Source of the DNA: Bolinopsis microptera
Lineage: Eukaryota > Ctenophora > Tentaculata > Lobata > Bolinopsidae
DNA: 64,000 bases
Assembly: GCF_026151205.1 (NCBI RefSeq)
Contig: NC_087072.1
Coordinates: 10,082,169-10,146,168 of the forward strand
Direction: 5' to 3'
Shown one piece after another: positions 30,265 through 54,640 of this stretch. The notes under the pieces are model-generated. The model saw nothing but the letters and a program-made list of their open reading frames with translations. It was not told where the DNA came from and did no database searches. Position numbers and translations under genes: made by a program. Every line of letters starts with the position of its first letter. Within the stretch, counting starts at the first letter, position 1.

Positions 30265-30454
30265 CTGAGTAATTTTTAAGTTATGTGACCAGAATGATAA
30301 TCTTTCACGACCTTTAAGTTTGATTCGGTAACTAATAACACCGAAGGCGATATAACTAGTATAGTGTAAGTACTTCAGTATTTTCTAAGATAATAAGATT
30401 AATAACATTAATAGGAGACAATGCCCGTAATACACAATATTAAGATTGATTTAA

Positions 30455-31156
30455 GGGGGACAGGGGGGTCTTCATCAAAATTCTCTCGAAATTGACTTTA
30501 TAGTTGTTTCTGATAGAAGAGAGTGATATCTATCAGCTGTTTTTAGTTCCATGGAAAAGTATTGTTCCTAGCCGAAATTATTGCCGGTCAAAGGTCAGGG
30601 CGCGGCTTATGTGTAATTGTATTACGCGAGCGATTTTCAATCGCGTGCCCTGAAAATCGAGTCTAAAAATCTATCTCCTCCTACATTTTTTGAGCTATCA
30701 CCCTGAAACCTTCAGGATATGTTTTAAGATAGGTCTTGAGATAGGTCTTAGAAATTTTTTTATTCGATTTTGAAAATCTTGGACCTCGTTTTTTGACAAT
30801 TGTTTCAGGTCCAAGATTTTCAAAATCAAATAAAATTTGTTCTAAGGCCTATCTCCAAATTCTGGCCTAACAATCTCTTTTAAATGGTCCTTAAAACATA
30901 TCCTGAAAGTTTCAGGGTGATCGCTCAAAAAATGTAGGAAGAAGATAGATTTTTAGACTCGATTTTCAGGGCGCGTGATTGAAAATCGCTCGCGCAATAC
31001 AATTACACGTAAGCGCTGACCTTTGACCGGCAATAATTTCGGCTAGGAACAATATTTTTCCATGAGACTAAGGACAGCTGATAGATATCACTCCCCTCTA
31101 TCAGAAACAACTGTAAAGTCAATTTCGAGAGAATTTTGATGAAGACCCCCCCGGCC
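30455..31156. mobile_element. TTAA-type foldback element, older copy with degraded right end
   Basis: The left end follows TTAA (30451-30454) and begins GGGGGACAGGGGGGTCTTCA. The two halves are long imperfect inverted repeats meeting near 30800; the right half ends with the complementary C-rich run at about 31156 without TTAA. It belongs to the same family as 40387-41116: both share AATTGTATT followed by a GCGAGCGATTTTCAATCG segment and the TCTATCAG end motifs. It encodes nothing recognisable and sits just upstream of the first located PP2A B exon, perhaps in intron 1 or the promoter region. Confidence 0.75.
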
Positions 31157-33273: not shown

Positions 33274-33644
33274 GGAGAACATTTTTCGGAGCTATTAAAC
33301 CCTCCTCCCACGAATGCGGATCTGTCTGACCTGGACCATCTTGAAGTGGTTCCATGCTTTCCTTATCTTGGTGATGGTGATGGTCCCCCCACTAGACTTG
33401 AGATTTTAAACTGTCTCAAAAAATTGAAGAACCACAAAAGTGCTGGGATCGACGAAATCTCTAATGAGCAGTTGAAGTATGGGGCAAGTGGTCTTGTGGA
33501 TAGGATGGAGAAATTGGTCTCTAAAGTTTGGAAATCAGAAGCAGTGCCTGACGACTGGTTGAAAGGCATCGTGATAATTGTACCAAAGAAGGGTGATACC
33601 TCTCATTGCTCCAATAATAGGGGGATCACTCTAAGATCCACAGC
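33274..33644 (+). pseudogene. Non-LTR retrotransposon reverse transcriptase, 5' fragment
   Basis: An open frame from just after tandem stops at 33268-33273 reads EHFSELLN, then LKNHKSAGIDEISNEQLKYG and IVPKKGD with NNRGITL. This is the linker and amino-terminal part of a LINE reverse transcriptase domain. The frame breaks at the 8-bp duplication TCCACAGC (33637-33644). The upstream endonuclease region is not recognisable, so the copy is probably 5'-truncated or decayed. The gene continues in the same frame at 46681. LINE clade is uncertain (RTE/Jockey/CR1-like). Confidence 0.9.
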
Positions 33645-33749
33645 TAAGGTTTTTTTTTATAGGGTGCCAAGGGTGCCAGCACCCTTGCCTCAAATTTTTT
33701 CATCGAAAAATTAAAATTGGCTGAAACGAAAAAAAAAACATATTTTCTT

Positions 33750-33777
33750 GGGGGGGGGGGGGGGGGGGGGGGGGGGG
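33750..33777 (+). repeat. 28-bp poly-G tract
   Basis: An uninterrupted G run immediately before the left end of the inner 5.3-kb element; the last G is the first base of the GTCTATA flank. A run of the same length occurs at 24439-24466. Confidence 0.9.
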
Positions 33778-34309
33778 TCTATAGGCGGGGTGCAACACCT
33801 AACCCCGCTAATCCCGCCAAATCCCGCGTAATCCCGCGTAATCCCGCCAAATCCCGCCAAATCCCGCGTAATTCCGCGTAATTCCGCCAAATTCCACGTA
33901 ATCCCGCCAAATTCCACGTAATCCCGCCGATAAAAATAAAGTTAATTTTTTTATGTCACAAATTTTACTCATCAAAGCATAAATACGAAACTCGATCGGT
34001 TTTTAACAATACGAAATGGTTTTGTTAATAACCAAATTTTGCACTTTAGTTTTCGTAAATAGCATAGATAGAAGTTTCCATACTTTGACAGGAAAACATT
34101 AGTTGCTCATTTGGTAAAGGCCACATTTATATTGGATCCCTGAAATATTCCTACAGAGTAGTTGAGTAGTTGAGTAGTTGCAGTAGCGGACCTTTCAAAG
34201 TTCATCTTGAAAGGAGATATCGATTGCAAGTATTGCCACCAGATTTTCAAAACCGGAAGTTTACTAAGATGTATTATCATTGAACTGATTACAAAAGATG
34301 ATCATAATT

Positions 34310-37300
34310 GAGAAAAGAGGAGGAGGAGGAGGAGGAGGACTAAGGAGGAAGACTGAGGAGGAGGGGGAGGACTGAGGAGGAGGACTGAGGAGGAGGACTG
34401 AGGAGGACTGATGAGGAGAAGGAGGTGGATGAAGAGAACTGAGGAGGAGGAGAAGGAGGACTGAGGAGGACTGGTGAGGAGAAGGAGGCGGACTGAGGAG
34501 GAGGAGGAGGAGGAGGAGAAGGACTAAAGAGGAGGAGGACCCAGGAGGAGGATAACTGAGGAGAAGGACCGATGAGGAGGAGGACAGAGGAAGAGGAGGA
34601 GAAGGACTGAGGAGGAGAAGGAGGACCCAGGAGGAGGACCCAGGAGGAGGAGCAGGAGGAGGACTGAGGATGAGGATGAGGGTGGCTGGGGGAGGACTGA
34701 GGAGGAGGAGGAAACCTGAGGAGGAGGTGTACGATGAGAAGGACTGAGGAGGAGGAGGAGGACTGAGGAGAAAGATGAGGAGGACTGAGGAGAAAGATGA
34801 GGAAGAGGACTGAAGAGGGAGACTGAGGAGGAGGAGGGGAGGCGGAGGAGGACTGAGGATGACTGATGAGGAATGATGAGGAGAAGGAGGTGGATGAGGA
34901 GGATGAGGAGGACTAAGGAGAAGGAGGAGAAGAAAGAGGACTGGTGAAAAGGATTGATAAGGAGGAGGATGATCAGGATGACCCAGGAGGAGGATATAGG
35001 AGGAGGATGAGGACTGAGGATGAGGACTGAGGAGGAGGAAGAGGACTGAGGAGGATGGCTGAGGAGGATGACTGAGAGGGAGGAAGAGAAGGAGGAGTAA
35101 AACTGAGGAAGACTGAGAAGAAGGAGGAGGAGAACTGAGGAGGAGGACTGAAGAGGGGGACTGAGGAAGAGGAGGGGAGGCGGAGGAGGATTGAGGAGGA
35201 TGACTGATGACTGGTGAGGAGGGGAAGGAGGTGGATGAGGAGGATGAGGAGGACTAAGGAGGAGGAGAAAGAGGACTGGTGAAGGGGATTGATGAGGAGG
35301 AGGAGGAGGACTGATAAGGAGGAGGAGGAGGAGGACTAAGGAGGAGGGGAAAGAGGTGGATAAGGAGGATGAGGAGGATGAGGAGGACTAAGGAGAAGGA
35401 GGAGGAGAAGGAGAAGGAGGACTGGTGAAGAGGATTGATGAGGAGGAGGACTGATGAGGAGGAGGACTGAGGAGGACTGAGAAGGAGGAGGACTGAGGAG
35501 AACGATGAGGAGGAGGACTGAGGAGGAGGGGAAGGAGGTGGATGAGGAAGATGATGAGGATGAGGAGGACTGAGGAGGAGGAGGACTGAGGAGTAGGAGT
35601 AGGAGGATGACTGAGGAGGGGAGGAGGAAGAGGACAAAGGAGGATCAGGATGACCCAGGAAGAGGACCCAGGAGGAGGAGGAGGACTGAGGAGGAGGAGG
35701 AGGACTGAATAGGAGGAGGAGGGGGACTGGGGGAGGACTGAGGAGGAGGACTAAGGAGAACGATGAGGAGGAGGACTGAGGAGGAGGGGAAGGAGGTGGA
35801 TGAGGAAGATGAGGAGGATGAGGAGGACTGAGGAGGAGGAGGACTGAGGAGTAGGAGTAGGAGGATGACTGAGGAGGGGAGGAGGAAGAGGACAAAGGAG
35901 GATCAGGATGACCCAGGAAGAGGACCCAGGAGGAGGAGGAGGACTGAGGAGGAGGAGGAGGACTGAGAAGGAGGAGGACTGAGGAGAACTGAGGAGGAGG
36001 AGGACTAAGGAGAAATATGAGGAGGACTGACGAGGAAGATGAGGACTGAGGAGGAGGAGGACTGAGGAGGATGGCTGAGGAGGATGACTGAGAGGGAGGA
36101 GGAGGAGTAAAACTGAGGAGGACTGAGGAGAAGTCTCAGAAGAACTGAGGGGGAGGAGGACTAAGGAGAAATATGAGGAGGACTGACGAGGAAGATGAGG
36201 ACTGAGGAGGAGGAGGACTGAGGAGGATGGCTGAGGAGGATGACTGAGAGGGAGGAGTAAAACTGAGGAGGACTGAGGAGAAGGAGGATAAGGACTGAGG
36301 AGAACTGAGGAGTAGGACTGAAGAGGGGACTGAGGAGGAGGAGGGGAGGCGGAGGATGACTGAGGAGGATGACTGATGAGGAATGATGAGGAGGGGAAGG
36401 AGGTGGATGAGGAGGATGAGGAGGACTAAGGAGAAGGAGGAGGAGAAGGAGGACTGGTGAAGAGGATTGATGAGGAGGAGGAGGAGGTGGACTGAAGAGG
36501 AGGAGATGACTGAGGAGGGGAGGAGGAAGAGGACTGAGGAGGATCTGGATGACCCAGGAGGATGACCCAGGAGGAGGACTGAGGAGGATGACTGAGGAGG
36601 AGGAGGACTGAGGAGGAGGAGGACTGAGAAGGAGGACTGAGGAGTACTGAGGAGGAGGAGGACTAAATATGAGGAGGAGGAGGGGGACTGGAGGAGGACT
36701 GAGGAGGGGGACTGAGGAGGACTGAGGATGAGGACTGAGGAGGAGGAGGAGGACTGAGGAGGACTGAGGGGGATGGCTGAGGAGGATGACTGAGAGGGAG
36801 GAGGAGGAGGAGTAAAACTGAGGAGGACTGAGGAGAAGGAGGATGAGGACTGAGGAGGAGGACTGAAGAGGAGGACTGAGGAGGAGGAGGGGAGGCGGAG
36901 GAGGACGACTGATGAGAAATGATGAGGAGGGGAAGTAGGTGGATGAGGAGGATGAGGAGGATGAGGAGGACTAAGGAGAAGGAAGAGGAGAAGGAGAAGG
37001 AGGACTGGTGAAGAGGATTGATGAGGAGGAGGAGGACCGAGAAGGAGGAGGACTGAGGAGAACTGAGGAGGAGGAGGAGGACTGAATAGGAGGAGGGGGA
37101 CTGGGGGAGGACTGAGGAGGAGGACTGAGGACTGAAGAGGGGGAGGATGAAAATGAGGGGAGGAGGAAGAAGACTGAGGAGGATCAGGATGACCCAGGAG
37201 GAGGACCCAGGAGGAGGACCCAGGAGGAGGACCCAGGAGGAGGACCCAGGAGGAGGACCCAGGAGGACTGAGGAGGATGACTGGGGAGGAGGAGGACTGA

Positions 37301-38371
37301 GGAGGACGACTGAGGAGGACTGAGAAGGAGGAGGACTGAGGAGAACTGAGGAGGAGGAGGAGGACTGAATAGGAGGAGGAGGGGGACTGGGGGAGGACTG
37401 AGGAGGAGGACTAAGGAGAACGATGAGGAGGACTGAGGAGGAGGACTGAAAACTGAAGAGGAGGAGGATGAAAAGGAGGAGGACTGATGAGGAGGGGGAG
37501 GAGGAGGAGGGGAGGAGGAGGACTGAGGAGGGGGACTGAGGAGGATGGCTGAGGAGGTTGACTGAGGAGGAGGACTGACAGGATGGAGGAGGAGGAGGAA
37601 GACTGAGGAGGAGGAGGAGGTAAAGGAGTAAGGACTGAAGAGGAGAAAGAGGAGGAGGAGGACCCAGGAGGAGGACCCAGGAGGAGGACTCAGGAGGAGG
37701 ACTGAGGAGGAGGAAGAGGAGGAGGAGGAGGAGGAGGAGGACTGAGGAGGAGGACTGAGGAGGACTGAGGAGGATGGCTGAGGAGGTTGACTGAGGAGGA
37801 GGACTGACAGGGAGGAGGAGGAGGAGGAAGACTGAGGATGAGGAGGTTAAGGACTGAAGAGGAGAAAGAGGAGGAGGAGGACCCAGGAGGAGGACCCAGG
37901 AGGAGGACCCAGGATCGGAGGAGGACCCAGGAGGAGGACTGAGAAGGAGGAAGCTGGAAGAGGAGGAAGAGGAGGAGGAGGAGGAGGACTTAGGAGAACG
38001 ATGAGGAGGAGGACTGAGGAGGAGGATTGAGGACTGAAGAGGAGGAGGATGAAAAGGAGGAGGACTGAGGAGGAGGGGGAGGAGGAGGAGGGGAGGAGGA
38101 GGACTGAGGTGGAGGAATGAGGAGGAGGACTGAGGAGCATGGCTGAGGAGGTTGACTGAGGAGGAGGACTGACAGGGAGGAGGAAGACTGAGGAAGAGGA
38201 GGAGGTAAAGAACTGAAGAGGAGAAGGAGGAGGAGGACCCAGGAGGAGGATCCAGGAAGAGGACCCAGGAGGAGGACCCAGGAGGAGGACCCAGGAGGAG
38301 GACCCAGGAGGAGGACCCAGGAGGAGGAAGAGGAGGAGGAGGAGAAGGAGGAAGAGGAGGAGGAGGAAGCA
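34310..38371 (+). repeat. Purine-rich GGA/GGACTGA minisatellite array, about 4 kb
   Basis: The plus strand is built from GGA, GAGGACTGAG and GGACCCAGGA units, almost all purine apart from CTGA and CCC islands. Larger blocks recur: a run of GGACCCAGGAG units near 37196-37265 and 38236-38325, and similar long blocks at 35505-35635 and 35770-35895. The minus strand is therefore open in long frames of Pro, Ser and Leu, which follow from composition and are not evidence of a gene. The array lies within the inner inverted-repeat element. Confidence 0.95.
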
Positions 38372-39004
38372 TCTAAATTTTATTTCCATTTTTGTTATTT
38401 TTTGTCCGCTCTATTTTTTGTCTGTTTTGAAAATATAGGGTACCGAACGGACAAAAAACATGAGCCTCCCCCCCCCCCCCCTAACATAGCCTGCATGAAG
38501 CAAATTTACATAGCATAAGATGAATTATTGAACGGAATGAACTACAGTCGTTCTAGCATTACAGTTTGAAATAACGTATCTAATGCTTTTAATAACACAA
38601 CTGACGCTTTGAATCTTTGAATAACATAACCCAAGTGAGAGCTTGAAGTAGATCGCAGGGCAATTAGATTTAAAGAACGGTTACAAGTCTTTATGATCTG
38701 ATAATTTGGTAACAACGCTTTTCTTCTTGGTTACTGAACTAAAAGCAACGTCGGTGAATCATCACAAAACCCTCTGGGTAGCTGCTGTTGAAGATAGCTT
38801 GAAAAATAACGGCTCAGTTCCGAGATTTCCGAGGGTCAAGATCAGGCGAAGAGCATTGTGCCACTGTTGCAAAGAATGGTATTATGTTTATACGTGAATT
38901 TTGAGCCTCCAAAGATTATTTGGATTTTTGTCGTTGGAAAAAACAACCAAAATTTTACATTTTCAAAAATTTGAGAAAAATTTTACCTTTCGTCCGATTC
39001 CGCT
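38372..39004. other. Non-array interior of the inner element
   Basis: Sequence between the GGA array and the right subterminal repeats. It contains a C run near 38468-38481 and a short inverted pair around 38400-38460 (TTTTTTGTC with GACAAAAAA). A 63-codon open frame at 38706-38897 is unrecognised. Confidence 0.5.
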
Positions 39005-40386
39005 AATCCCGCCAAATCCCGCCAAATCCCGCGTAATTCCGCGTAATCCCGCCTAATCACGCCTAATTCCGCAAGTGCGGGGTTAGACGGAAATTGGCGG
39101 AGTTATGTGCTGCACCCCGCCTGTCTATACTCTATAAGGTGGAATAGTGGGTCTGTTGATATTGATAGTGGGTCTGTTGTTATTAAGTGTGTGTCTACTC
39201 GCTTAATAGTGGGTCTTTGCTACTCTGAAATGGGTCTGTAGATTGACTTATCGGTCTGTAAGATGAAATAGTGAGCCTGTTGATATTGATAGTGGGTCTG
39301 TTGTTATTAAGTGTGTGTCTACTCGCTTAATAGTGGGTCTTTGCTAATCTGAAATGGGTCTGTAGGTTGACTTGTGGGTCTGTAAGATGAAATAGTGGGC
39401 CTGTTGATATTGATAGTGGGTCTGTTGTTATTAAGTGTGTGTCTACTCGCTTAATAGTGGGTCTTTGCTAATCTGAAATGGGTCTGTAGGTTGACTTGTG
39501 GGTCTGTAAGATGAAATAGTGGGCCTGTTGATATTGATAGTGGGTCTGTTGTTATTAAGTGTGTGTCTACTCGCTTAATAGTGGGTCTTTGCTACTCTGA
39601 AATGGGTCTGTAGGTTGACTTGTGGGTCTGTAAGATGAAATAGTGGGCCCGTTGATATTGATAGTGGGTCTGTTTTTATTAAGTGTGTGTCTACTAGCTT
39701 AATAGTGGGTCTTTGCTACTCTGAAATGGGTCTGTGGATTGACTTGTGGGTCTGTAAGATGAAATAGTGGGTCTGTTGATATTGATAGTAGGTCTGTTGT
39801 TATCAACTGTGTGTCTACTTGCTTAATAGTGGGTCTTTGCTAATCTGAAATGGGTCTGTAGATTGACTTAAGGTCTGTAAGATGAAATAGTGGGCCCGTT
39901 GATATTGATAGTGGGTCTGTTTTTATTAAGTGTGTGTCTACTCGCTTAATAGTGGGTCTTTGCTACTCTGAAATGGGTCTGTAGATTGACTTGTGGGTCT
40001 GTAAGATGAAATAGTGAGCCTGTTGATATTGATAGTGGGTCTGTTGTTATTAAGTGTGTGTCTACTCGCATAATAGTGGGCCTTTGCTACTCTGAAATGG
40101 GTCTGTAGATTTATTTGTGGGTCTGTAAGGTTACAAAGTGGGTCTGTTATTATTGGCAGTGGGTCTCTAAGGTCAAATAGTGGGCCTATTTTTATTAAGT
40201 GTGTGTCTACTAGCTTAATAGTGGTCTTTGCTACTCTGAAATGGGTCTGTGGATTGACTTGTGGGTCTGTAAGATGAAATAGTGGGTCTGTTGATATTGA
40301 TAGTAGGTCTGTTGTTATCAACTGTGTGTCTACTCGCTTAATAGTGGGTCTTTGCTAATCTGAAATGGGTCTGTAGATTGACTTAA

Positions 40387-41116
40387 GGGGGCAGGGGGGG
40401 GGGGTCTTCATGGAAATTTTCTCAAAATCGACTTTTTAGTTGTTTCTGATAGATGGGAGTGATATCTATCAGATGCTTTTAATCCGAAAGAAAAATATTG
40501 CTCCTAGCAGAAATTATCGCCGGTAGAAGGTCAGCGCTTGTGTGTAATTGTATTGCGCGAGCGATTTTCAATCGTGTGCCCTGAAAATCGAGTCTAAAAA
40601 TCTATCTTCTCCTACATTTTTTGAGCAATCACCCTTTAACTTTCAGGATATGTTCTAAGGATCATTTAGAAGGGATTGTCCGGGCAAAATTTTGAGATAG
40701 GCCTTTAAACATTTTTTATTCGATTTTGAAAATCTTGGACCTGGTTTTTTGACGATTTTTCGAGGTCCAAGATTTTTAAAATCGAATAAAAAATGTTTAA
40801 AGGCCTATCTCAAAATTTTGCCCGGACAATCCCTTCTAAATGATCCTTAGAACATATCCTGAAAGTTTGAGGGTGATTGCTCAAAAAATGTAGGAGAAGA
40901 TAGATTTTTAGACTCGATTTTCAGGGCACGCATTCAAAAATCGCTCGCGCAATACAATTACACACAAGCGCTGACCTTTTACCGGCGATAATTTCGGCTA
41001 GGAACAATATTTTTCTATCGGATTAAAAGCATCTGATAGATATCACTCCCCTCTATCAGAAACAACTAAAAAGTCGATTTTGAGAAAATTTCCATGAAGA
41101 CCCCCCCCCTGCCCCC
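40387..41116. mobile_element. 730-bp TTAA-type foldback element in the 124-bp satellite
   Basis: TTAA flanks both sides (40383-40386, 41117-41120). The ends are GGGGGCAGGGGG and its complement, and the whole element is two long inverted arms meeting near 40755. Uninterrupted monomers contain GACTTAAGGTCTG (for example near 39866), which is the empty site. TTAA duplication is known for piggyBac-like and Kolobok elements; the G-rich termini do not settle which. There is no coding capacity. Confidence 0.9.
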
Positions 41117-42108
41117 TTAAGGTCTGTAGGATGAAATAGTGGGCCTGTTGATATTGATAGTGGGTCTGTTGTTATTAAGTGTGTGTCTACTCGCTTAATA
41201 GTGGGTCTTTGCTAATCTGAAATGGGTCTGTAGATTGACTTAAGGTCTGTAAGATGAAATAGTGGGCCTGTTGATATTGATAGTGGGTCTGTTGTTATTA
41301 AGTGTGTGTCTACTCGCTTAATAGTGGGTCTTTGCTAATCTGAAATGGGTCTGTAGATTGACTTAAGGTCTGTAAGATGAAATAGTGGGCCCGTTGATAT
41401 TGATAGTGGGTCTGTTTTTATTAAGTGTGTGTCTACTCGCTTAATAGTGGGTCTTTGCTACTCTGAAATGGGTCTGTAGGTTGACTTGTGGGTCTGTAAG
41501 ATGAAATAGTGGGCCTGTTGATATTGATAGTGGGTCTGTTGTTATTAAGTGTGTGTCTACTCGCTTAATAGTGGGTCTTTGCTACTCTGAAATGGGTCTG
41601 TAGGTTGACTTGTGGGTCTGTAAGATGAAATAGTGGGCCCGTTGATATTGATAGTGGGTCTGTTTTTATTAAGTGTGTGTCTACTAGCTTAATAGTGGGT
41701 CTTTGCTACTCTGAAATGGGTCTGTGGATTGACTTGTGGGTCTGTAAGATGAAATAGTGGGTCTGTTGATATTGATAGTAGGTCTGTTGTTATCAACTGT
41801 GTGTCTACTAGCTTAATAGTGGGTCTTTGCTAATCTGAAATGGGTCTGTAGATTGACGTAAGGTCTGTAAGATGAAATAGTGGGCCCGTTGATATTGATA
41901 GTGGGTCTGTTTTTATTAAGTGTGTGTCTACTCGCTTAATAGTGGGTCTTTGCTACTCTGAAATGGGTCTGTAGATTGACTTGTGGGTCTGTAAGATGAA
42001 ATAGTGAGCCTGTTGATATTGATAGTGGGTCTGTTGTTATTAAGTGTGTGTCTACTCGCATAATAGTGGGCCTTTGCTACTCTGAAATGGGTCTGTAGAT
42101 TGACTTAA

Positions 42109-42582
42109 GGGGGCAGGGGGGGGGTCTTCATGGAAATTTTCTCAAAATCGACTTTTTAGTTGTTTCTGATAGATGGGAGTGATATCTATCAGATGCTTTT
42201 AATCCGATAGAAAAATATTGCTCCTAGCAGAAATTATCGCCGGTAGAAGGTCAGCGCTTGTGTGTAATTGTATTGCGCGAGCGATTTTCAATCGCGTGCC
42301 CTGAAAATCGAGTCTAAAAATCTATCTTCTCCTACATTTTTGAGCAATCACCCTTTAACTTTCAGGATATGTTCTAAGGATCATTTAAAAGGGATTGTCC
42401 GGGCAAAATTTTGAGATAGGCCTTTAAACATTTTTTATTCGATTTTGAAAATCTTGGACCTGGTTTTTTGACGATTTTTCGAGGTCCAAGATTTTTAAAA
42501 TCGAATAAAAAATGTTTAAAGGCCTATCTCAAAATTTTGCCCGGACAATCCCTTCTAAATGATCCTTAGAACATATCCTGAA
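42109..42582. mobile_element. Right-truncated copy of the TTAA foldback element
   Basis: It starts after TTAA (42105-42108) with GGGGGCAGGGGGGGG and follows the copy at 40387 almost base for base through the turn, then stops within the right arm after CATATCCTGAAG and continues directly as satellite (TGTGTGTCTACTCGC). About 250 bp of right arm and the right TTAA are missing. The junction shares AAG between element and satellite, suggesting a short-homology deletion. Confidence 0.85.
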
Positions 42583-42989
42583 GTGTGTGTCTACTCGCTT
42601 AATAGTGGGTCTTTGCTACTCTGAAATGGGTCTGTAGATTGACTTGTGGGTCTGTAAGATGAAATAGTGAGCCTGTTGATATTGATAGTGGGTCTGTTGT
42701 TATTAAGTGTGTGTCTACTCGCATAATAGTGGGCCTTTGCTACTCTGGGTCTGTAGATTTATTTGTGGGTCTGTAAGGTTACAAAGTGGGTCTGTTATTA
42801 TTAGCAGTGGGTCTCTAAGGTCAAATAGTGGGCCTATTTTTATTAAGTGTGTGTCTACTAGCTTAATAGTGGTCTTTGCTACTCTGAAATGGGTCTGTGG
42901 ATTGACTTTTGGGTCTGTAAGATGAAATAGTGGGTCTGTTGATATTGATAGTAGGTCTGTTGTTATCAACTGTGTGTCTACTCGCTTAA

Positions 42990-44391
42990 GGGGACATACA
43001 CCAAAACCTTTTTTGCCGGGACCCGGGATTTGACTTCATATTATGAAAGTATAGATTACAACTGTAAGATTTGAGGCATTGAAAAATTTTTTTGAGAGTA
43101 CGTACATTCGAAAAAAAAATTATTTTCTTTTTCGAAAGTTTTGGAAATTTTGAGAAGTCTGTCACTGTAATACCGATATTTCAGTCATTTTAAACGTTGT
43201 TTGGCTGATTTTTTAACTGAACATTATTTTCAATCCATACAAGAAGCCCTTTAAAGGATTTTATAATTAAAGAATAGATGACGAAGTTACAGACCAAACA
43301 AGGTCGAGAGAAGCAAAATTGAAATTTTTGTAAAAATCAAAGTTGTATATTTTACCATTCACCCAGGTCATAAGATATCGCTTCACAAATTCTTGTGAGT
43401 GTAGCTGATGATCATATCCAACTTTTTGGAACAGGATTTCTCTCAATTTTGAGTGTGAAGGTATGAAATGTGGCCTCAAACGACTTGGTAAAATTCATCG
43501 TAAAAAAGGGCCAAACATGGCAGATTTAAGGCTTAAAATGCCTATAACTCAAAAAGCATCAATTTTTTTGAAATAATTTTTACAGAATCGTAATCAGCTT
43601 GAGAAGACGAATCTTTTAGTACCAAATAGGTTATTTTAGAAGACAAATTGTCTTAAATAATTTTCTAGCTTGAACACAAGGGTCCCCCCTTGTATAAATT
43701 TTGTACAAATTGTACACATTTTTTTACAAATTTTGTGTCTTAAACTATTATAAATTTGGTACTAAAAGATTCGTCTTCTCAAGCTGATTACGATTCTGTA
43801 TAAATTATTTCAAAAAAATTGATGCTTTTTGAGTTATAGGCATTTTAAGCCTTAAATCTGCCATGTTTGGCCCTTTTTTACGATGAATTTTACCAAGTCG
43901 TTTGAGGCCACATTTCATACCTTCACACTCAAAATTGAGAGAAATCCTGTTCCAAAAAGTTGGATATGATCATCAGCTACACTCACAAGAATTTGTGAAG
44001 CGATATCTTATGACCTGGGTGAATGGTAAAATAAACAACTTTGATTTTTACAAAAATTTCAATTCTGCTTCTCTCGACCTTGTTTGGTCTGTAACTTCGT
44101 CATCTATTCTTTAATTATAAAATCCTTTAAAGGGCTTCTTGTACGGATTGTAAATAATGTTCAGTTAAAAAATCAGCCAAACAACGTTTAAAATGACTGA
44201 AATATCGGTATTACAGTGACAGACTTCTCAAAATTTCCAAAACTTTCGAAAAAGAAAATAATTTTTTTTTCGAATGTGCGTACTCTCAAAAATTTTTTTC
44301 AATGCCTCAAATCTTACAGTTGTAATCTATACTTTCATAATATGAAGTCAAATCCCGGGTCCCGGCAAAAAAGGTTTTGGTGTATGTCCCC
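42990..44391. mobile_element. 1.4-kb near-perfect palindromic element with TTAA duplication
   Basis: TTAA lies on both sides (42986-42989, 44392-44395). The left end GGGGACATACACCAAAACC is exactly complemented at the right end, and the arms of about 650-690 bp are nearly identical inverted copies around a short centre near 43690. The empty site CTCGCTTAATAGTGGG is present in uninterrupted monomers (for example near 39208). Each arm contains the same 70-codon open frame in mirror orientation (43267-43479 minus, 43902-44114 plus) with a few substitutions. That follows from arm symmetry, and the frame matches no family I recognise. The termini differ from those of the 730-bp family. Confidence 0.9.
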
Positions 44392-44857
44392 TTAATAGTG
44401 GGTCTTTGCTAATCTGAAATGGGTCTGTAGATTGACTTAAGGTCTGTAAGATGAAATAGTGGGCCTGTTGATATTGATAGTGGGTCTGTTGTTATTAAGT
44501 GTGTGTCTACTCGCTTAATAGTGGGTCTTTGCTACTCTGAAATGGGTCTGTAGATTGACTTGTGGGTCTGTAAGATGAAATAGTGAGCCTGTTGATATTG
44601 ATAGTGGGTCTGTTGTTATTAAGTGTGTGTCTACTCGCATAATAGTGGGCCTTTGCTACTCTGGGTCTGTAGATTTATTTGTGGGTCTGTAAGGTTACAA
44701 AGTGGGTCTGTTATTATTAGCAGTGGGTCTCTAAGGTCAAATAGTGGGCCTATTTTTATTAAGTGTGTGTCTACTAGCTTAATAGTGGTCTTTGCTACTC
44801 TGAAATGGGTCTGTGGATTGACTTGTGGGTCTGTAAGATGAAATAGTGGGTCTGTTG

Positions 44858-45030
44858 TTGATGATGTTTTTGATGAAATTGTTTTTAAATATTGTATTTG
44901 ATAATTAATTAATGTTGGTGGGGAAATATTTATTATATATTTTTTCACACAGTGCGATGATAGTTTGTAGACATGTGTGATGATGTGATGTCATAAATTT
45001 TACTCTACTTTTACTTTCTACTCTACTTTG
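44858..45030. other. About 170-bp interruption of the satellite by unrelated AT-rich sequence
   Basis: After GTCTGTTGTTGAT the satellite is replaced by AT-rich sequence and resumes at TTGTTGATATTGATAG. GTTGAT is present at both edges and could be a short duplication or part of the monomer. The segment holds repeated TGATGATGTGATG and TTTACTCTAC motifs. Type unknown. Confidence 0.5.
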
Positions 45031-45835
45031 TTGATATTGATAGTAGGTCTGTTGTTATCAACTGTGTGTCTACTCGCTTAATAGTGGGTCTTTGCTAATC
45101 TGAAATGGGTCTGTAGATTGACTTAAGGTCTGTAAGATGAAATAGTGGGCCTGTTGATATTGATAGTGGGTCTGTTGTTATTAAGTGTGTGTCTACTCGC
45201 TTAATAGTGGGTCTTTGCTACTCTGAAATGGGTCTGTAGATTGACTTGTGGGTCTGTAAGATGAAATAGTGAGCCTGTTGATATTGATAGTGGGTCTGTT
45301 GTTATTAAGTGTGTGTCTACTCGCTAAATAGTGGGCCTTTGCTACTCTGAAATGGGTCTGTAGATTTATTTGTGGGTCTGTAAGGTTACAAAGTGGGTCT
45401 GTTGTTATTGGCAGTGGGTCTCTAAGGTCAAATAGTGGGCCTATTTTTATTAAGTGTGTGTCTACTAGCTTAATAGTGGGTCTTTGCTACTCTGAAATGG
45501 GTCTGTGGATTGACTTGTGGGTCTGTAAGATGAAATAGTGGGTCTGTTGATATTGATAGTAGGTCTGTTGTTATCAACTGTGTGTCTACTCCCCCATGGT
45601 CGCCTGGTAACTGGGCTGTGTTTATGACTGCAGTCAGTCAAAGATTTGAACTGTGGATTAGTCATTAGTAAATATCTGTCATAACATCCAAGCAAACATT
45701 CTAGAAGACTTCTATAAATAGTCAATAGTGTCCCCTAGACCGTAGGAAATGTAAAAATTTTAAGACGATGAGGCCTGAGTAAGTCGTAAATTCTGATTGG
45801 AGAATGCAGATTGCTGTTGTGAAGTTACCAACTTT

Positions 45836-46300
45836 ACGTGAGTACTTGATTCTTTTCAATCCCAGTTTATTGCTGTCCTACAAATTTCTTTAATGCCAAA
45901 TGTCGTCTAAAACACCCTGTTTCGCAAAAAATTTCCGGGGGGCTGCGCCCCCTAGCCCCCGCCAAGGGGCTCTGCCCCTGGACCCCGCTGGGGGCTGCGC
46001 CTCCAGACCCCTGCCACAGCTTGCTCGCTTCGCTCGCTGCGCAGCTGGATTGGACACATCGGCTCGCTTCGCTCGCCGACAGCTCCCCTCAAAGAAAAAT
46101 CCTGGCTACGTCGCTGTACGTGAGTACTTGATTCTTTTCAATCCCAGTTTATTGCTGTCCTACAAATTTCTTTAATACCAAATGTCGTCTAAAACACCCT
46201 GTTTCGCAAAAATTTTCCAGGGGGCTGCGCCCCCCAGACCCCTGCCACAGCTTGCTCGCTTCGCTTGCTGCGCAGCTGGATTAAAAAACCTGGCTACGTC
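45836..46300. repeat. 282-bp-offset duplication with CpG-rich GCTTCGCTCGC blocks
   Basis: A segment beginning near 45836 (ACGTGAGTACTTGATTC) is repeated at offset 282 bp (from 46118) with few changes. It includes GTCGTCTAAAACACCCTG and a GC-rich block with GGGGGCTGCGCCCC and TTGCTCGCTTCGC motifs, in contrast to the AT-rich surroundings. A 91-codon open frame at 45900-46175 spans it but looks compositional. It lies near the right end of the 13-kb insertion. The stretch 46300-46680 has no gene and ends in the right inverted repeat. Confidence 0.7.
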
Positions 46301-46680
46301 CCTGACCTATACCTACATCTTTATACTATAAGTATAAAGCCAGCATTTTAAGAGGTATTTGTAAGTTTTCCACATATGTATGAGTGGACTTTGGAAATCA
46401 AATTATCAACCAAAATGTGGTGGAATATTGCATATATGAATAGTACATATATAATTATTCTGACGGAAGAAGGTCATCAACTTCAAGTCCTAAATTATTA
46501 GTCCAATCTCTAAGATTGTTGATAGGGAAAGTTCAAAAAATTGGATTAAAAAATTTGCGAAAAAAGTTACTGCGAGCGCAGCTCAGCCAGCGAGCCACAT
46601 TCAATGGAAAAGTGGGTCTTTAACCCAAAAAAGTCAGCACCATTGGGTGGGTCTGTGGCACCCAGAAAAAAAAAACCTTA

Positions 46681-47724
46681 TCCACAGCATCTAAACTGTA
46701 TCAAATCATCATATTACAACGCATGAGTGACGGTTTAGAAAGTTTGCTACGAGACAATCAGTGTGGGTTTAGAAAGAACAGATCATGCATTGATCAGATT
46801 TATTCACTCCGCACCATTATACATAACTGCATTGAATATAATCTCCCCCTGTATGTAAATTTTGTGGACTTCAAGGCAGCTTTTGATTCCATCGACAGGA
46901 ATTATATTTGGAAAGCTTTCAGTCATTATGGCCTGTCATGTAAATACATTCGAATAATACAGGCATTCTTTAATGGAACTGTTAGTGCTGTTAGACACAA
47001 TGGTGAACTATCAGAATGGTTTGAAGTAAGTTCAGGCAGTGGCCAAGGAGACATTCAGGGTCCCCCACTTTTTAATGTCTGCCTCAATGTGGCTGCTGAG
47101 AGAACAGAAAGCAACAAAGTGGTGTCCCACGGAGCGGTTCTTCAAAGATCTATCAGTCCGCTTGTTGATGATATCACTGTGTTAGATACAGATTATGCAG
47201 ATGACATGGCTGTACTGGACAACAGCGAGGAAGGTCTTCAAGAAACAACTGACCTTTTCTGTATGTATGGTGCCCAGGGAGGTCTTAGAATCAATGGTAA
47301 AAAGACTGAGGCTATGGTCATTGGTAAAGCAACCTCTCAACGGCCATACACGAAAGAAGCCACAGTGAACATCACTGTTGAAGACACGCCAGTGCAGCAA
47401 GTTAGTGACTTTACGTACTTAGGTACAATTATTTCCAGCGACGGTACTATCGACCGTGAGCTGTCAGCTAGGATTCAGAAAGCTTCCGGAGCCTTCAATC
47501 AACTGAGTAATATATGGAAAAACCGCAACATCCAGTATTATACAAAGATCAGGATTTATAAGGCAGCGGTTTTGACAATATTGTTATATGGTAGTGAGGT
47601 TTGGAACACAACCAAAAAGCAGCTACATTTCTTTGAGGTGTTCCATCAGCGTTGCTTGAGGAGAATACTTAGGATAAGATGGCTCGATCGGGTTAGAAAC
47701 ACTGAAGTGCTGGAGCGTGCAAGA
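46681..47724 (+). pseudogene. Non-LTR retrotransposon reverse transcriptase, catalytic fragment
   Basis: The frame continues from the duplicated TCCACAGC through codons for SKLYQ into a long open stretch; the first internal ATG is at 46723. Counting from that ATG, motif A FVDFKAAFDS has its Asp at residue 49, motif B GSGQGDIQGPPLFN is at 105-118, and the catalytic YADD is at 158-161 in YADDMAVL. LLYGSEVW follows at 288-294 and QRCLRRILRIRW at 309-320. No stop interrupts these 348 codons, so the element was still open when the 13-kb insertion landed. The frame ends at TAA (47725-47727), where unrelated sequence begins. Confidence 0.95.
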
Positions 47725-48786
47725 TAAATCCAGTAGAGTGAAACAAATTTTAGTGAAACAAATTTAAAATTTTATCCTTTATTTTACAATCATAATATAA
47801 TAATATTTATAAGCCTCCGTTTTGAAAGTTTTAAATTTTAATACATTCACATTTCTATTTAAAATTCAATTTTATGTACAAGTCAATAACTGGCCGCCAA
47901 AGCCGCGCATTCTTGAAAACAGGATTAACTTGATTATAGTTATACGACTATGTAAATTTAAAACTATCCGTGGTTTTTTCTTTAAAATAAATAAGTTATA
48001 ATTTTACCTAAGTCCAAAGCCAGCTTTGAAAAATTTACTATTAAATCTAATCATAATATATCGTCAACTTTAAATATTTACAATGCAACAATTCATTAAT
48101 CTGTAAACACGCGTACTCCAGCCCCTAAACGCATAAATTGTTATGCGGCGCGGCTCAAGCCGCGCACGCACGTATTATTTTATACTGTTTGCTTTCTAAT
48201 AAATATCGTGCCAATGTGTACGACTAAATTGTAAACGTTCATGTTTTGTGTAAAGTGAATCCAATTGGGACTAGTGACAAGGATAAGGACCCAAGTGCCT
48301 GTACGGCTTTTTCGGACCCCTGTGGACCACTACTCTTGAAATCACTCTACAACATTGAACATCTATATCTACTACGTCATTTGGCAATTATTGTCATTAG
48401 TCTAACTTTCTAATTAATTGCCGAGGGGGAAGAGTAAACGCTTCACATTAAAATTCAATATACAAAATTCAATATACAAAATTCAAAACCATCAATACGG
48501 TATCAAATATTATGGACAAATCTATAGATCTATTTCGTAGTCATATATTCACATGATTTGCTTTATATTATCTTAATACTGTAATGAAGTACAGTAGGAT
48601 TTGTGTTTCGAGAAAGAAAGGTTGCGGTTAAATTATTAACAAAAGTAAACAAAAGTCCATCAGGGACTCCGTGGAGTCGAAAAAGGTACACGGCCGCTGT
48701 CTGGTGCTGCTAGGCATTTATTGATCAAGATGTTTTATTGTATTGATTTATAATGATTCTATTGTTCGTGACTAATCAAGTTCTAA
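47725..48786. mobile_element. Unidentified insertion of about 1.06 kb in the reverse transcriptase
   Basis: The retrotransposon coding sequence stops after GAGCGTGCAAGA and its C-terminal part resumes at about 48787. The intervening AT-rich DNA has no recognisable gene or clear terminal inverted repeat. AAGA is present at both edges but is too short to call a duplication, and joining there would leave a frame offset, so a small deletion may also have occurred. GCCGCGC-type motifs resemble repeats near 50.0-50.3 kb. Confidence 0.55.
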
Positions 48787-51314: not shown

Positions 51315-54300
51315 TTTGGGGCTAATATTAAATACTAGTGGACTCTTTGCAGCTCTTCCAGCACCCCTAAATTTACTGATCTGGAGGTCACATTTTATTG
51401 AGCCAGTACAGGCTAATATTAAATACTAGTGGACTCTATGCAGCTCTTCCAGTACCCCTAATTTTACTGATCTGGAGGTCACATTTTACTGAGCCAGTAC
51501 AGGCTAATATTAAATACTAGTGGACTCTATGCAGCTCTTCCAGCACCCTTAATTTGACTGATCTGGAGGTCACATTTTATTGAGCCAGTACAGGCTAATA
51601 TTAAATACTAGTGGACTCTATGCAAATTCTTCCAGCACCCTTAATTTAACTGATCTGGAGGTCACATTTTATTGAGCCAGTACAGGCTAATATTAAATAC
51701 TAGTGGACTCTATGCAGCTCTCCCAGCACCCCTAAATTTACTGATCTGGCGGTCACATTTTATTGAGCCAGTACAGGCTAATATTAAATACTAGTGGACT
51801 CTATGCAGCTCTTCCAGCACCCCTAATTTTACTGATCTGGAGGTCACATTTTATTGAGCCAGTACAGGCTAATATTAAATACTAGTGGACTCTATGCAGC
51901 TCTTCCAGCACCCTTAATTTTACTGATCTGGAGGTCACATTCTATTGAGCTAGTACAGGCTAATATTAAATACTAGTGGACTCTATGCAGCTCTTCCAGC
52001 ACCCCTAATTTTACTGATCTGGAGGTCACATTTTATTGAGCTAGTACAGGCTAATATTAAATACTAGTGGACTCTATGCAGCTCTTCCAGCACCCCTAAT
52101 TTTACTGATCTGGAGGTCATATTTTTTTGAGCCAGTACAGGCTAATATTAAATACTAGTGGACTCTATGCAGCTCTTCCAGCACCCTTAATTTTACTGAT
52201 ATGGAGGTCACATTCTATTGAGCCAGTACAGGCTAATATTAAATACTAGTGGACTCTATGCAGTTCTTCCAGCACCCTTAATTTTAATGATCTGGAAGTC
52301 ACATTTTATTGAGCCAGTACAGGCTAATATTAAATACTAGTGGACTCTATGCAGCTCTTCCAGCACCCTTAATTTTACTGATCTGGAGGTCACATTTTAT
52401 TGAGCCAGTACAGGCTAATATTAAATACTAGTGGACTCTATGCAGCTCTTCCAGCACCCTTAATTTGACTGATCTGGAGGTCACATTTTATTGAGCCAGT
52501 ACAGGCTAATATTAAATACTAGTGGACTCTATGCAAATTCTTCCAGCACCCTTAATTTAACTGATCTGGAGGTCACATTTTATTGAGCCAGTACAGGCTA
52601 ATATTAAATACTAGTGGACTCTATGCAGCTTTCCCAGCACCCCTAAATTTACTGATCTGGCGGTCACATTTTATTGAGCCAGTACAGGCTAATATTAGAT
52701 ACTAGTGGACTCTATGCAGCTCTTCCAGCACCCCTAATTTTACTGATCTGGAGGTCACATTTTATTGAGCCAGTACAGGCTAATATTAAATACTAGTGGA
52801 CTCTATGCAGCTCTTCCAGCACCCTTAATTTTACTGATCTGGAGGTCACATTCTATTGAGCTAGTACAGGCTAATATTAAATACTAGTGGACTCTATGCA
52901 GCTCTTCCAGCACCCCTAATTTTACTGATCTGGAGGTCACATTTTATTGAGCTAGTACAGGCTAATATTAAATACTAGTGGACTCTATGCAGCTCTTCCA
53001 GCACCCCTAATTTTACTGATCTGGAGGTCATATTTTTTTGAGCCAGTACAGGCTAATATTAAATACTAGTGGACTCTATGCAGCTCTTCCAGCACCCTTA
53101 ATTTTACTGATGTGGAGGTCACATTCTATTGAGCCAGTACAGGCTAATATTAAATACTAGTGGACTCTATGCAGTTCTTCCAGCACCCTTAATTTTAATG
53201 ATCTGGAAGTCACATTTTATTGAGCCAGTACAGGCTAATATTAAATACTAGTGGACTCTATGCAGCTCTTCCAGCACCCTTAATTTTACTGATCTGGAGG
53301 TCACATTTTATTGAGCCAGTACAGGCTAATATTAAATACTAGTGGACTCTATGCAGCTCTTCCAGCACCCTTAATTTTACTGATCTGGAGGTCACATTTT
53401 ATTGAGCCAGTACAGGCTAATATTAAATACTAGTGGACTCTATGCAAATTCTTCCAGCACCCTTAATTTTACTGATCTGGAGGTCACATTTTATTGAGCC
53501 AGTACAGGCTAATATTAAATACTAGTGGACTCTATGCAGCTCTCCCAGCACCCCTAATTTTACTGATCTGGAGGTCACATTTTTTTGAGCCAGTACAGGC
53601 TAATATTAAATACTAGTGGACTCTATGCAGCTCTCCCAGCACCCCTAATTTTACTGATCTGGAGGTCACATTTTATTGAGCCAGTACAGGCTAATATTAA
53701 ATACTAGTGGACTCTATGCAGCTCTTCCAGCACCCCTAATTTTACTGATCTGGAGGTCACATTTTATTGAGCCAGTACAGGCTAATATTAAATACTAGTG
53801 GACTCTATGCAGCTCTTCCAGCACCCCTAATTTTACTGATCTGGAGGTCACATTTTATTGAGCCAGTACAGGCTAATATTAAATACTACTAGTGGACTCT
53901 ATGCAGCTCTTCCAGCACCCTTAATTTGACTGATCTGGAGGTCACATTTTATTGAGCCAGTACAGGCTAATATTAAATACTAGTGGACTCTATGCAGCTC
54001 TTCCAGCACCCTTAATTTTACTGATCTGGAGGTCCCCTTTTTTTGAGCCAGTACAGGCTAATATTAAATACTAGTGGACTCTATGCAGCTCTTCTAGCAC
54101 CCTTAATTTGACTGATCTGGAGGTCACATTTTACTAGTGGACTCTATGCAGCTCTTCCAGCACCCCTAATTTAACTGATCTGGAGGTCACATTTTATTGA
54201 GCCAGTACAGGCTAATATTAAATACTAGTGGACTCTATGCAGCTTTTCCAGCACCCTTAATTTTACTGATCTGGAGGTCACATTTTATTGAGCCAGTACA

Positions 54301-54467
54301 GGCTAATATTAAATAATAGTGGACTCTATGCAGCTCTTCCAGCACCCCTAAATTTACTGATCTGGAGGTCACATTTTATTGAGCCAGTACAGGCTAATAT
54401 TAAATACTAGTGGACTCTATGCAGCTCTTCCAGCACCCTTAATTTTACTGATCTGGAGGTCACATTT
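51315..54467 (+). repeat. 91-bp satellite array with a 911-bp higher-order period
   Basis: The monomer contains GGCTAATATTAAATACTAGT, GGACTCTATGCAGCTCTTCC and CTGATCTGGAGGTCAC. The anchor GCTAATATT recurs at 51321, 51412, 51503 and so on, a 91-bp step, about 35 copies. Rare variants recur at exactly 911 bp: TGCAAATTCTTCC at 51621, 52532 and 53443; CGGTCAC at 51750 and 52661; CATATTTTTTTGAGCC near 52118 and 53029. This is ten monomers plus one extra base. One shortened unit occurs near 54134 and a 3-bp insertion near 53887. No gene is encoded. Confidence 0.97.
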
Positions 54468-54640
54468 TCCCTCAGTAGCTACTCTCCCACTCAGTATTAA
54501 TTCTCTGTCTTCATCAGTGATACTCTACATTTCCCTCAGTAGTTATTCTCCCACTCAGTATTAATTCTCTGTCTTCATCAGTGATACTCGATATTTCCCT
54601 CAGTAGCTACTCTTCCACTCAGTATTAACTCTCTAAATAA
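54468..54640 (+). repeat. 64-bp tandem repeat, about 2.6 copies
   Basis: Units starting CCCTCAGTAG at 54469, 54533 and 54597 include CCACTCAGTATTAA and TCTTCATCAGTGATACTC. The 64-bp repeat directly abuts the 91-bp satellite, joining within a monomer. A later TCTAATCTAATCTAATCT microsatellite lies at about 54777. Confidence 0.9.

Follow-up and report, generated by a model that had tools for sequence, protein, structure and literature searches.

The 13,036-bp insertion that interrupts a long interspersed nuclear element (LINE) in the genome of the ctenophore Bolinopsis microptera is one copy of a real transposon family, here called family A, which is non-autonomous and carries a native satellite of 124-bp units. 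The insertion occupies positions 33645-46680 of the stretch analysed (the window: 64,000 nucleotides, RefSeq assembly GCF_026151205.1, contig NC_087072.1, positions 10,082,169 to 10,146,168 of the forward strand). We consider it likely that this is a cut-and-paste family in which a short sequence core, GTGGGTCT, was amplified into tandem arrays inside the element, and that its copies are mobilised in trans by a hAT-type transposase. A sister family, B, carries a different satellite built on the same core.

The insertion and the interrupted LINE

The junctions and the interrupted frame are as follows.

33637..33644, unstranded: left target-site duplication, TCCACAGC
46681..46688, unstranded: right target-site duplication, TCCACAGC
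33421..33644, plus strand: upstream part of the interrupted LINE reverse-transcriptase frame, used in the empty-site test
46689..47727, plus strand: downstream part of the interrupted LINE reverse-transcriptase frame, with the RVT_1 match

The two copies of TCCACAGC lie immediately outside TAAGGTTTTTTTTTATAGGGTGCCA on the left and TGGCACCCAGAAAAAAAAAACCTTA on the right, and the insert starts with TAAGGTTTTTTTTTATAGGGTGCCA and ends, read on the other strand, with TAAGGTTTTTTTTTTCTGGGTGCCA. When 33421-33644 and 46689-46860 are joined, one frame is free of stops and the other two contain many. Pfam RVT_1 (E 1.3e-23) identifies the downstream part as a reverse transcriptase. The genome (264.65 Mb, 232 contigs) was searched with these joined 396-bp flanks, and all 40 places scored, out of 348 first-look candidates, matched them, 39 over positions 1-396 and one over 1-395, with 97-99 % identity and spans of 394-396 bp. 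As these matches represent empty sites, the insertion is younger than the LINE copy.

Copies and ends of family A

33645..46680, plus strand: whole family-A element copy, 13,036 bp; both ends occur as a pair at 21 loci, this one among them
33645..33749, plus strand: left end; its inverted tip at 33645-33669 reads TAAGG-T9-ATA-GGGTGCCA, and GGGTGCCA occurs here a second time; 22 genome matches from position 1
33750..33776, plus strand: poly-G tract, at least 14 G here in 20 of the 22 left-end copies
45592..46680, plus strand: right region, including the GC-rich tandem common to family B
46656..46680, minus strand: right inverted tip TAAGG-T10-CT-GGGTGCCA, as read on this strand

The first 200 bp of the insert matched from position 1 at 22 places in the genome; the other 47 of the 69 matches to this query were mostly AATCCCGC repeats belonging to E2, a transposon nested in the window copy (see below). 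Using the last 340 bp, the right tip region was reached at 21 places, and one further right end was gained with the exact tip pattern, which matched 42 times as compared with once for its reversed control. By position, 21 copies could be paired, including the one in the window, leaving a single left end (C6:16876268) and a single right end (C3:12472788) unpaired. Perfect 8-bp duplications surround 18 of the 21 paired copies; the imperfect ones agree at 6/8 positions (L008), at 7/8 (L017) or are shifted (L011). Given the tip-pattern counts, the paired loci and the duplications, the observation is far beyond chance.

Apart from the window copy, the paired elements measure 469-6,808 bp, so that 13 kb is exceptional. 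Two plain copies of 1.8-1.9 kb (L009 and L016) display the basic layout, which consists of a left end of about 105 bp, a G-run (shorter than 14 G in L016 and L019), a short spacer, the array of 124-bp units and a right region of about 1.1 kb. The inverted tips match over about 25 bp, and the GC-rich tandem units at 45832-45964 and 46114-46247 are 94.8 % identical. One copy, L021 (C9:1294543-1298367), has a perfect duplication and a right tip joined directly to GC-rich sequence, without the usual subterminal region and motifs.

The first-pass annotation, made from the letters of the window, had described the same 8 bp at both junctions, matching inverted termini (TAAGG, a T-run and then GGGTGCCA) and a coding frame resuming in register, and had concluded that a defined element with paired ends entered after the LINE copy. 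All of this holds. The empty sites and the further copies, which it had suggested to look for, were found; the scored LINE copies do have the joined sequence and the two terminal segments do occur as pairs elsewhere.

The native satellite and its turnover

In the window copy the satellite amounts to 3,687 bp in five segments.

39131..40384, plus strand: segment A1, with six GTGGGTCT-type modules of about 21 bp per 124-bp unit
41121..42106, plus strand: segment A2, matching part of A1 over 981 bp at 98.2 % identity
42581..42989, plus strand: segment A3
44391..44865, plus strand: segment A4
45029..45591, plus strand: segment A5, matching part of A1 at 98.8 % identity

The array is present in all 22 family-A copies with a left end, where it ranges from 185 to 5,470 bp, or about 1.5 to 44 units, and its orientation is predominantly single in 20 of the 21 paired copies. 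A 500-bp array query returned 77 matches, a lower bound, all of which fall within family-copy coordinates as assigned by eye; this tally counts C3:12477174-12478112 with the unpaired right end at C3:12472788. No free 124-bp arrays outside family copies were found in this lower-bound search. As all left-end copies have the array and all 77 matches lie in family copies, the satellite was not collected by one copy; it is a native part of family A, variable in length.

Array length changes fast. We compared 634 columns of the right region among the 19 copies having both segments. Compared with the window copy, the right region is 99.8 % identical in L006 (array of 964 bp), 99.7 % in L005 (5,470 bp) and 99.7 % in L002 (958 bp). 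In a group of four copies with 99.4 % identity or more across the right region, array length thus runs from 958 to 5,470 bp. The main repeat offset is 1,301 bp in L005 and 1,990 bp in the window copy, and no 31-mer is multicopy in both of these long arrays yet absent from the remaining copies. The two long arrays thus grew separately.

Likeness of the array to the right terminus

46611..46620, plus strand: subterminal motif AGTGGGTCTT, core as in the satellite, found in L016 with its position read here
46647..46658, plus strand: subterminal motif GTGGGTCTGTGG, with GGGTCT beginning 32 nt from the tip, a distance also seen at most right ends of family B

The 124-bp unit consists of six modules of about 20-22 bp, most of them centred on GTGGGTCT, and both motifs listed above, within the last 120 bp of the element, are copies of this core. 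The terminal stretch of L016 has nine 9-mers in common with the array. Among 5,000 dinucleotide shuffles the mean was 0.11 and none reached nine, and neither did any of 7,126 stretches elsewhere in the window (maximum 5). Outside the terminus, the right region shares at most one 9-mer with the array. The arrays are probably amplified terminal motifs, and these may be sites of transposase binding.

Sister family B

One copy of E2, on C3, sits in another GTGGGTCT array, bounded by TAAGG-T10 tips and the duplication GCCTGGCA. A search for the motif near the right tip gave 75 matches against 7 for the control. Of these, 20 belong to family A, one looks like a chance match and 54 belong to family B, a count that takes in diverged variants. 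With a family-B left-end query we scored 40 left ends out of 62 candidates, of which 36 pair by position with right ends. The paired elements extend from 321 bp to 11.9 kb, with 27 of the 36 between 3.3 and 5.4 kb, and 31 of the 35 checked have perfect 8-bp duplications.

The two families are alike in the plan of their tips, in the 8-bp duplication and in the GC-rich tandem (about 78-92 % identity), and they also share a 39-bp block (97 %) just after the array. For an A-run of ten, the distance from the right tip to the start of GGGTCT is 32 nt in both. Their satellites are different. The family-B array is a 42-bp repeat of two modules, and what it has in common with the 124-bp satellite is mainly the GTGGGTCT core, repeated about every 21 bp in both, and a weaker preceding AATA. 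Some array is held by all family-B elements examined (L058, L059 in part, L062-L064, L125, L126 and the C3 copy). In the 321- and 324-bp copies of B and the 469-bp copy of A, three copies only, the array is inverted and the motif faces inward from both tips.

Some family-B loci have unusual flanks. In one of the four checked copies that lack a perfect duplication (L115/L116, C7:3710402 and C7:3702820), the left flank GACCAGTG, one base from the tip, recurs on the right as its reverse complement CACTGGTC, an arrangement that might come from an inversion between two copies. The diverged B-like right ends at L060 (C1:19022900-19028000) and L061 (C5:5126400-5131500) have an identical 14-bp flank, for which reason the element may have been carried inside other duplicated or mobile sequence.

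Target preference and superfamily

Elements of the hAT superfamily follow the terminal rule YARNG, which the TAAGG tips fit, and their groups differ in target motif, nTnnnnAn for Ac and nnnTAnnn for Buster. We analysed the 49 perfect duplications (18 from A, 31 from B) using family-A flanks only as background. The targets show a palindromic bias, C-Y-T-T-A-A-R-G (p 0.0001), and a central TA is present in 11 duplications against 4.0 expected (p 0.0017). The consensus derived from family A, CCTTAAGG, predicts the targets of family B: it scores 96 matches out of 248, whereas the samples averaged 62 and 0 of 20,000 reached this value (background again from family-A flanks). A p-value for the fixed consensus obtained from family A alone was circular and was discarded. 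CCTTAAGG equals the element tips CCTTA and TAAGG overlapped by two bases.

Of the hAT features, we thus observe 8-bp duplications (in 18/21 copies of A and 31/35 checked of B) and TAAGG at both tips. Domains for hAT dimerisation are common in the genome (150 scored out of 366 candidates), and one such hAT locus, L038, has CAAGG/CAGGG tips and an 8-bp repeat. As far as tips and target bias can tell, the families look hAT-like and nearest to the Buster preference, and their membership is putative.

Coding capacity and search for an autonomous partner

No transposase was recognised among the open reading frames (ORFs), with Pfam, of the family-A copies and large family-B copies examined. The ORFs of L007 and L017 encode reverse transcriptases and lie in segments unmatched by the plain copy L016, and a 180-aa ORF in L023 matches 7tm_1. 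The 229-aa ORF of L010, the 159-aa ORF of L021 and the 262-aa ORF of the family-B copy L059 have no Pfam match; a short unrecognised transposase fragment may be among them.

The first-pass annotation had seen no transposase in the insertion, had suggested a non-autonomous and perhaps undescribed family and had proposed a search for an autonomous relative. The copies examined agree with the first statement and with a non-autonomous family. As for the relative, none was found by searches based on hAT loci, on the tips or on the large family-B copies L059, L125 and L126. None of the 150 scored hAT places, compared by eye with the ends of A and B, lies within 10 kb of one. The tip search with 3 mismatches pointed to two new places, C6:2834353 and C208:4355. 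In the literature searched (the scope excluded Repbase, Dfam and subscription papers) we found precedents and no published description of such an element, comb jellies included.

A related-tip pattern, TAAGG-N3-16-GGGTGCCA, gave 245 matches against 17 for the control, with the types TAAGGCAGGAGCTC... and TAAGG[CT]AGCTTTCTCC... abundant among the matches listed. Three such loci had no inverted partner or repeated flank within 2.2 kb, and two of them share upstream sequence and so look internal to other repeats; these candidates were rejected.

Proposed mechanism and alternatives

We propose that the elements are probably mobilised in trans by a hAT-type transposase for which GTGGGTCT would serve as a subterminal binding site, much as BED domains of the hAT transposase of Hermes bind short subterminal repeats (PMC10368747). 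Copies of the core would have been amplified into tandem arrays inside the element, a process with precedents in Galileo and Tetris, where terminal sequence was amplified to tandem repeats (PMC4079207). This may have happened in each family separately, or a single time in their common ancestor, everything outside the core having diverged later. The arrays would then lengthen and shorten where they lie, through unequal exchange or slippage during replication, and move along with the element. The array may aid transposition, or the element may merely tolerate slippage.

Several observations weigh against this proposal. The left end has no 9-mer in common with the array, which in the long forms would confine a binding role to one side. 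In L021 the right-hand motif copies have been lost (there is no GGGTCT at the right tip) and the duplication is perfect all the same; the motif was not essential there unless the deletion came after the insertion. The Ac-type motif nTnnnnAn is not enriched in the duplications (6 against 4.4 expected, p 0.28). That a hAT enzyme mobilises the elements is our inference, and neither an autonomous partner nor a transposase was found: no family tips were seen at the 16 hAT loci inspected of the 150 scored, and the exact and 3-mismatch tip searches yielded no new paired element. Finally, the presence of an array in all copies could be explained by chance survival of the element's largest part.

It is conceivable, and in our estimate somewhat unlikely, that the clan belongs to another superfamily with duplications of about 8 bp, such as P, Mutator or a Zisupton-like one. 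Arguing for hAT are the fit of the tips to YARNG, duplications of exactly 8 bp, the enrichment of central TA as for Buster, the abundance of hAT domains in the genome and the hAT locus L038 with its CAAGG/CAGGG tips and 8-bp repeat. The missing transposase, the palindromic target bias and the lack of nTnnnnAn enrichment leave room for the other assignment, as do reports that P as well as hAT elements make duplications of about 8 bp in longer target motifs (PMC3706591) and that the Zisupton duplication is 8 bp (PMC12730594). As to the origin of the array, it is very unlikely that an ancestral element captured a pre-existing genomic satellite and resembles it at the terminus by coincidence or conversion. 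Capture is reported for CACTA elements of Chenopodium (PMC8978399), and other arrays do enter these elements, since GGAGGA-type arrays are present in E2 and, without E2 ends, in another family-A copy. Against capture, the lower-bound search placed the 124-bp unit at family coordinates only, its likeness to the terminal motif is far above that of shuffles and control stretches, and the sister family combines a different array on this core with the same terminal motif at about equal distance. An assembly artefact, in which collapsed or misjoined repeats gave the nested structure, is extremely improbable. Assembly of long tandem arrays and of poly-G tracts is difficult, and the array length of any given copy is open to doubt, but exact duplications around 18/21 copies of A and 31/35 of B, and the 6-bp ones of E2, are not expected from misjoins.

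Whether the arrays do anything is a much closer question. That they are selectively neutral, growing by slippage with no role in transposition, seems to us nearly as probable as not. Array length differs widely among near-identical copies and the duplication units differ, as in-place unequal exchange would give, and L021 has a perfect duplication in spite of having lost the terminal motif. On the other side, the arrays and termini of A and B agree in the GTGGGTCT core and hardly at all in the remainder of the module, and some array is kept even in the 469-bp copy of A and the 321- and 324-bp copies of B, inverted with the motif inward from both tips. A stronger version of a functional role would be that elements without an enzyme of their own multiply GTGGGTCT binding sites in competition for a hAT-type transposase in limited supply, that this happened at least twice and gave two satellites, and that shrunken copies of both families keep a minimal flipped array with the motif facing inward from both tips. 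We put this forward as a speculation that is unlikely as a whole; if it were true, satellite birth would be a by-product of transposon competition.

Comparison with known systems

In hAT elements of the Buster group, YARNG-type tips and the central-TA target preference resemble those of families A and B. The 8-bp duplications and short inverted repeats are also alike (PMC3942097), and so is the possession of subterminal repeats, which in Hermes are bound by BED domains (PMC10368747). Unlike these, A and B have no transposase, the Hermes motif is AAGT/AAGC and not GTGGGTCT, and the Ac-type target motif is not enriched.

Parallels outside hAT are described in Drosophila. Tetris/DAIBAM of Drosophila virilis is likewise non-autonomous with no partner found, has arrays of variable length and duplications of 8-10 bp, and its internal tandem repeats share a stretch of about 37 bp with the terminal domain; it is described in turn (PMC4079207) as a foldback element with arrays inside long inverted repeats, classed by its authors as Mutator, whose repeats also form larger satellite arrays. 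Families A and B share with this kind the paired ends, the duplications, the absence of own coding capacity, the internal repeats of variable copy number (185-5,470 bp in 22 copies of A) and their relation to the terminus. They differ in having an internal and one-sided array, TAAGG-T-run tips and 8-bp duplications. Free satellite arrays seeded by the element, which the wider kind need not have, were not found (124-bp unit only, lower-bound search), and no long inverted repeats hold the tandem repeats as in foldback elements, the tips matching over about 25 bp and the arrays being mainly in one orientation (20/21 paired copies of A). In Galileo, of the P superfamily, internal tandem repeats are described in PMC4079207, from work cited there, as carrying extra transposase-binding sites, a role that is putative in A and B; it differs in its foldback-like structure, long inverted repeats and THAP-domain transposase. 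Miniature inverted-repeat transposable elements bearing satellites (Xmix/Xstir, miDNA4, CvA/pearl and BIV160) also have tandem repeats that derive from a non-autonomous class II element or were amplified inside it; they belong to other superfamilies and hosts, and the relevant sections of PMC9659126 name no two sister families that built different satellites on a common terminal motif.

The birth of satellites is an open question, for which the two sister families, present together in a single genome, offer intermediate stages: a shared terminal motif, two distinct satellites, family-A arrays of very unequal unit number and near-identical copies whose arrays differ several-fold in length. Both the origin (the terminal motif) and the tempo (expansion within less than 1 % divergence) are directly testable in them.

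Nested inserts in the window copy

33783..39122, plus strand: nested transposon E2, terminal inverted repeat AGGCGGGGTGCA, 6-bp duplication GTCTAT at 33777-33782 and 39123-39128; five other copies, six genome places by interior
34317-38367: GAGGAG array inside E2
40387..41116, unstranded: palindromic insert P1, nested, TTAA-flanked
42109..42580, unstranded: P2, a truncated P1 duplicate, 98.7 % identical over 477 bp
42990..44391, unstranded: foldback insert of 1.4 kb, arms 94 % complementary, TTAA-flanked
44866..45028, unstranded: short AT-rich insert within the array

The size of 13 kb was reached by enlargement of the array, partly through a 2-kb duplication, and by the landing of the 5.3-kb E2, of a palindromic insert at TTAA (later duplicated) and of the foldback. 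The arrays preceding P2 and P1 are 98.2 % identical over 981 bp, and given this and the 98.7 % identity of P1 and P2, array and insert were duplicated together; the array thus grew by a duplication of about 1.99 kb that included the nested palindromic insert.

In the first-pass annotation, the element was seen as a container in which arrays expanded. This stands in part: its own array did enlarge by the duplication of about 1.99 kb, and the unpaired copy on C3 holds a GGAGGA-type array without E2 ends. On the other hand, the 124-bp satellite is native to the family, and the GAGGAG array and AATCCCGC repeats sit within E2, a separate transposon that encloses both in this copy.

E2 itself is a low-copy transposon of 4-8 kb with AGGCGGGGTGCA tips and AATCCCGC subterminal repeats next to both of them. 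Its sister loci are C4:15469730, C8:15144340, C3:4587188, C8:14101274 and C3:12670554, and further AATCCCGC matches to the left-end query lie at C7:9411821, C7:14024772 and C14:33084. All six copies examined have 6-bp duplications, read by eye: GTCTAT (33783-39122 copy), TTACAA, TACTAA, TGCTAA, GTATAA and TTCTAG. GAGGA repeats are also present in the fetched ends of several sister copies. An assignment to Dada, suggested by duplications of this length, was rejected as a misfit, since Dada-U6 and Dada-U1 are reported to be without terminal inverted repeats and Dada to target small RNA genes. In the unpaired family-A copy (L020 and L022, C3:12472388-12480400) there is a TCCTCC-rich (GGAGGA-type) array that runs the opposite way and has neither E2 tips nor AATCCCGC, so arrays of this type enter these elements by more than one route.

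The palindromic inserts at 30443-31152, 40387-41116 and 42109-42580 begin with GGGGG(A)CAGGGG, P1 and P2 being located at TTAA, and the palindrome near 30443-31152 is 82-84 % identical to P1. Outside the element, the window contains a 91-bp tandem array at 51320-54468 with about 31 units and 95 % matches. In the genome at large, the big contigs encountered are C1-C13, and those with higher numbers turn up with low coordinates only, which suggests thirteen chromosomes, the number also given for B. ovata in a comb-jelly genome paper (PMC11184263). The best match of one glutamate-receptor ORF (L054) among solved structures is the ML032222a iGluR of the comb jelly Mnemiopsis; at the cut-off used, a second such ORF, L053, indicated no particular phylum. 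Among 32 matches to a glutamate-receptor domain, 13 lie in open frames of 654-989 aa, so the glutamate-receptor genes seem to be largely intron-free.

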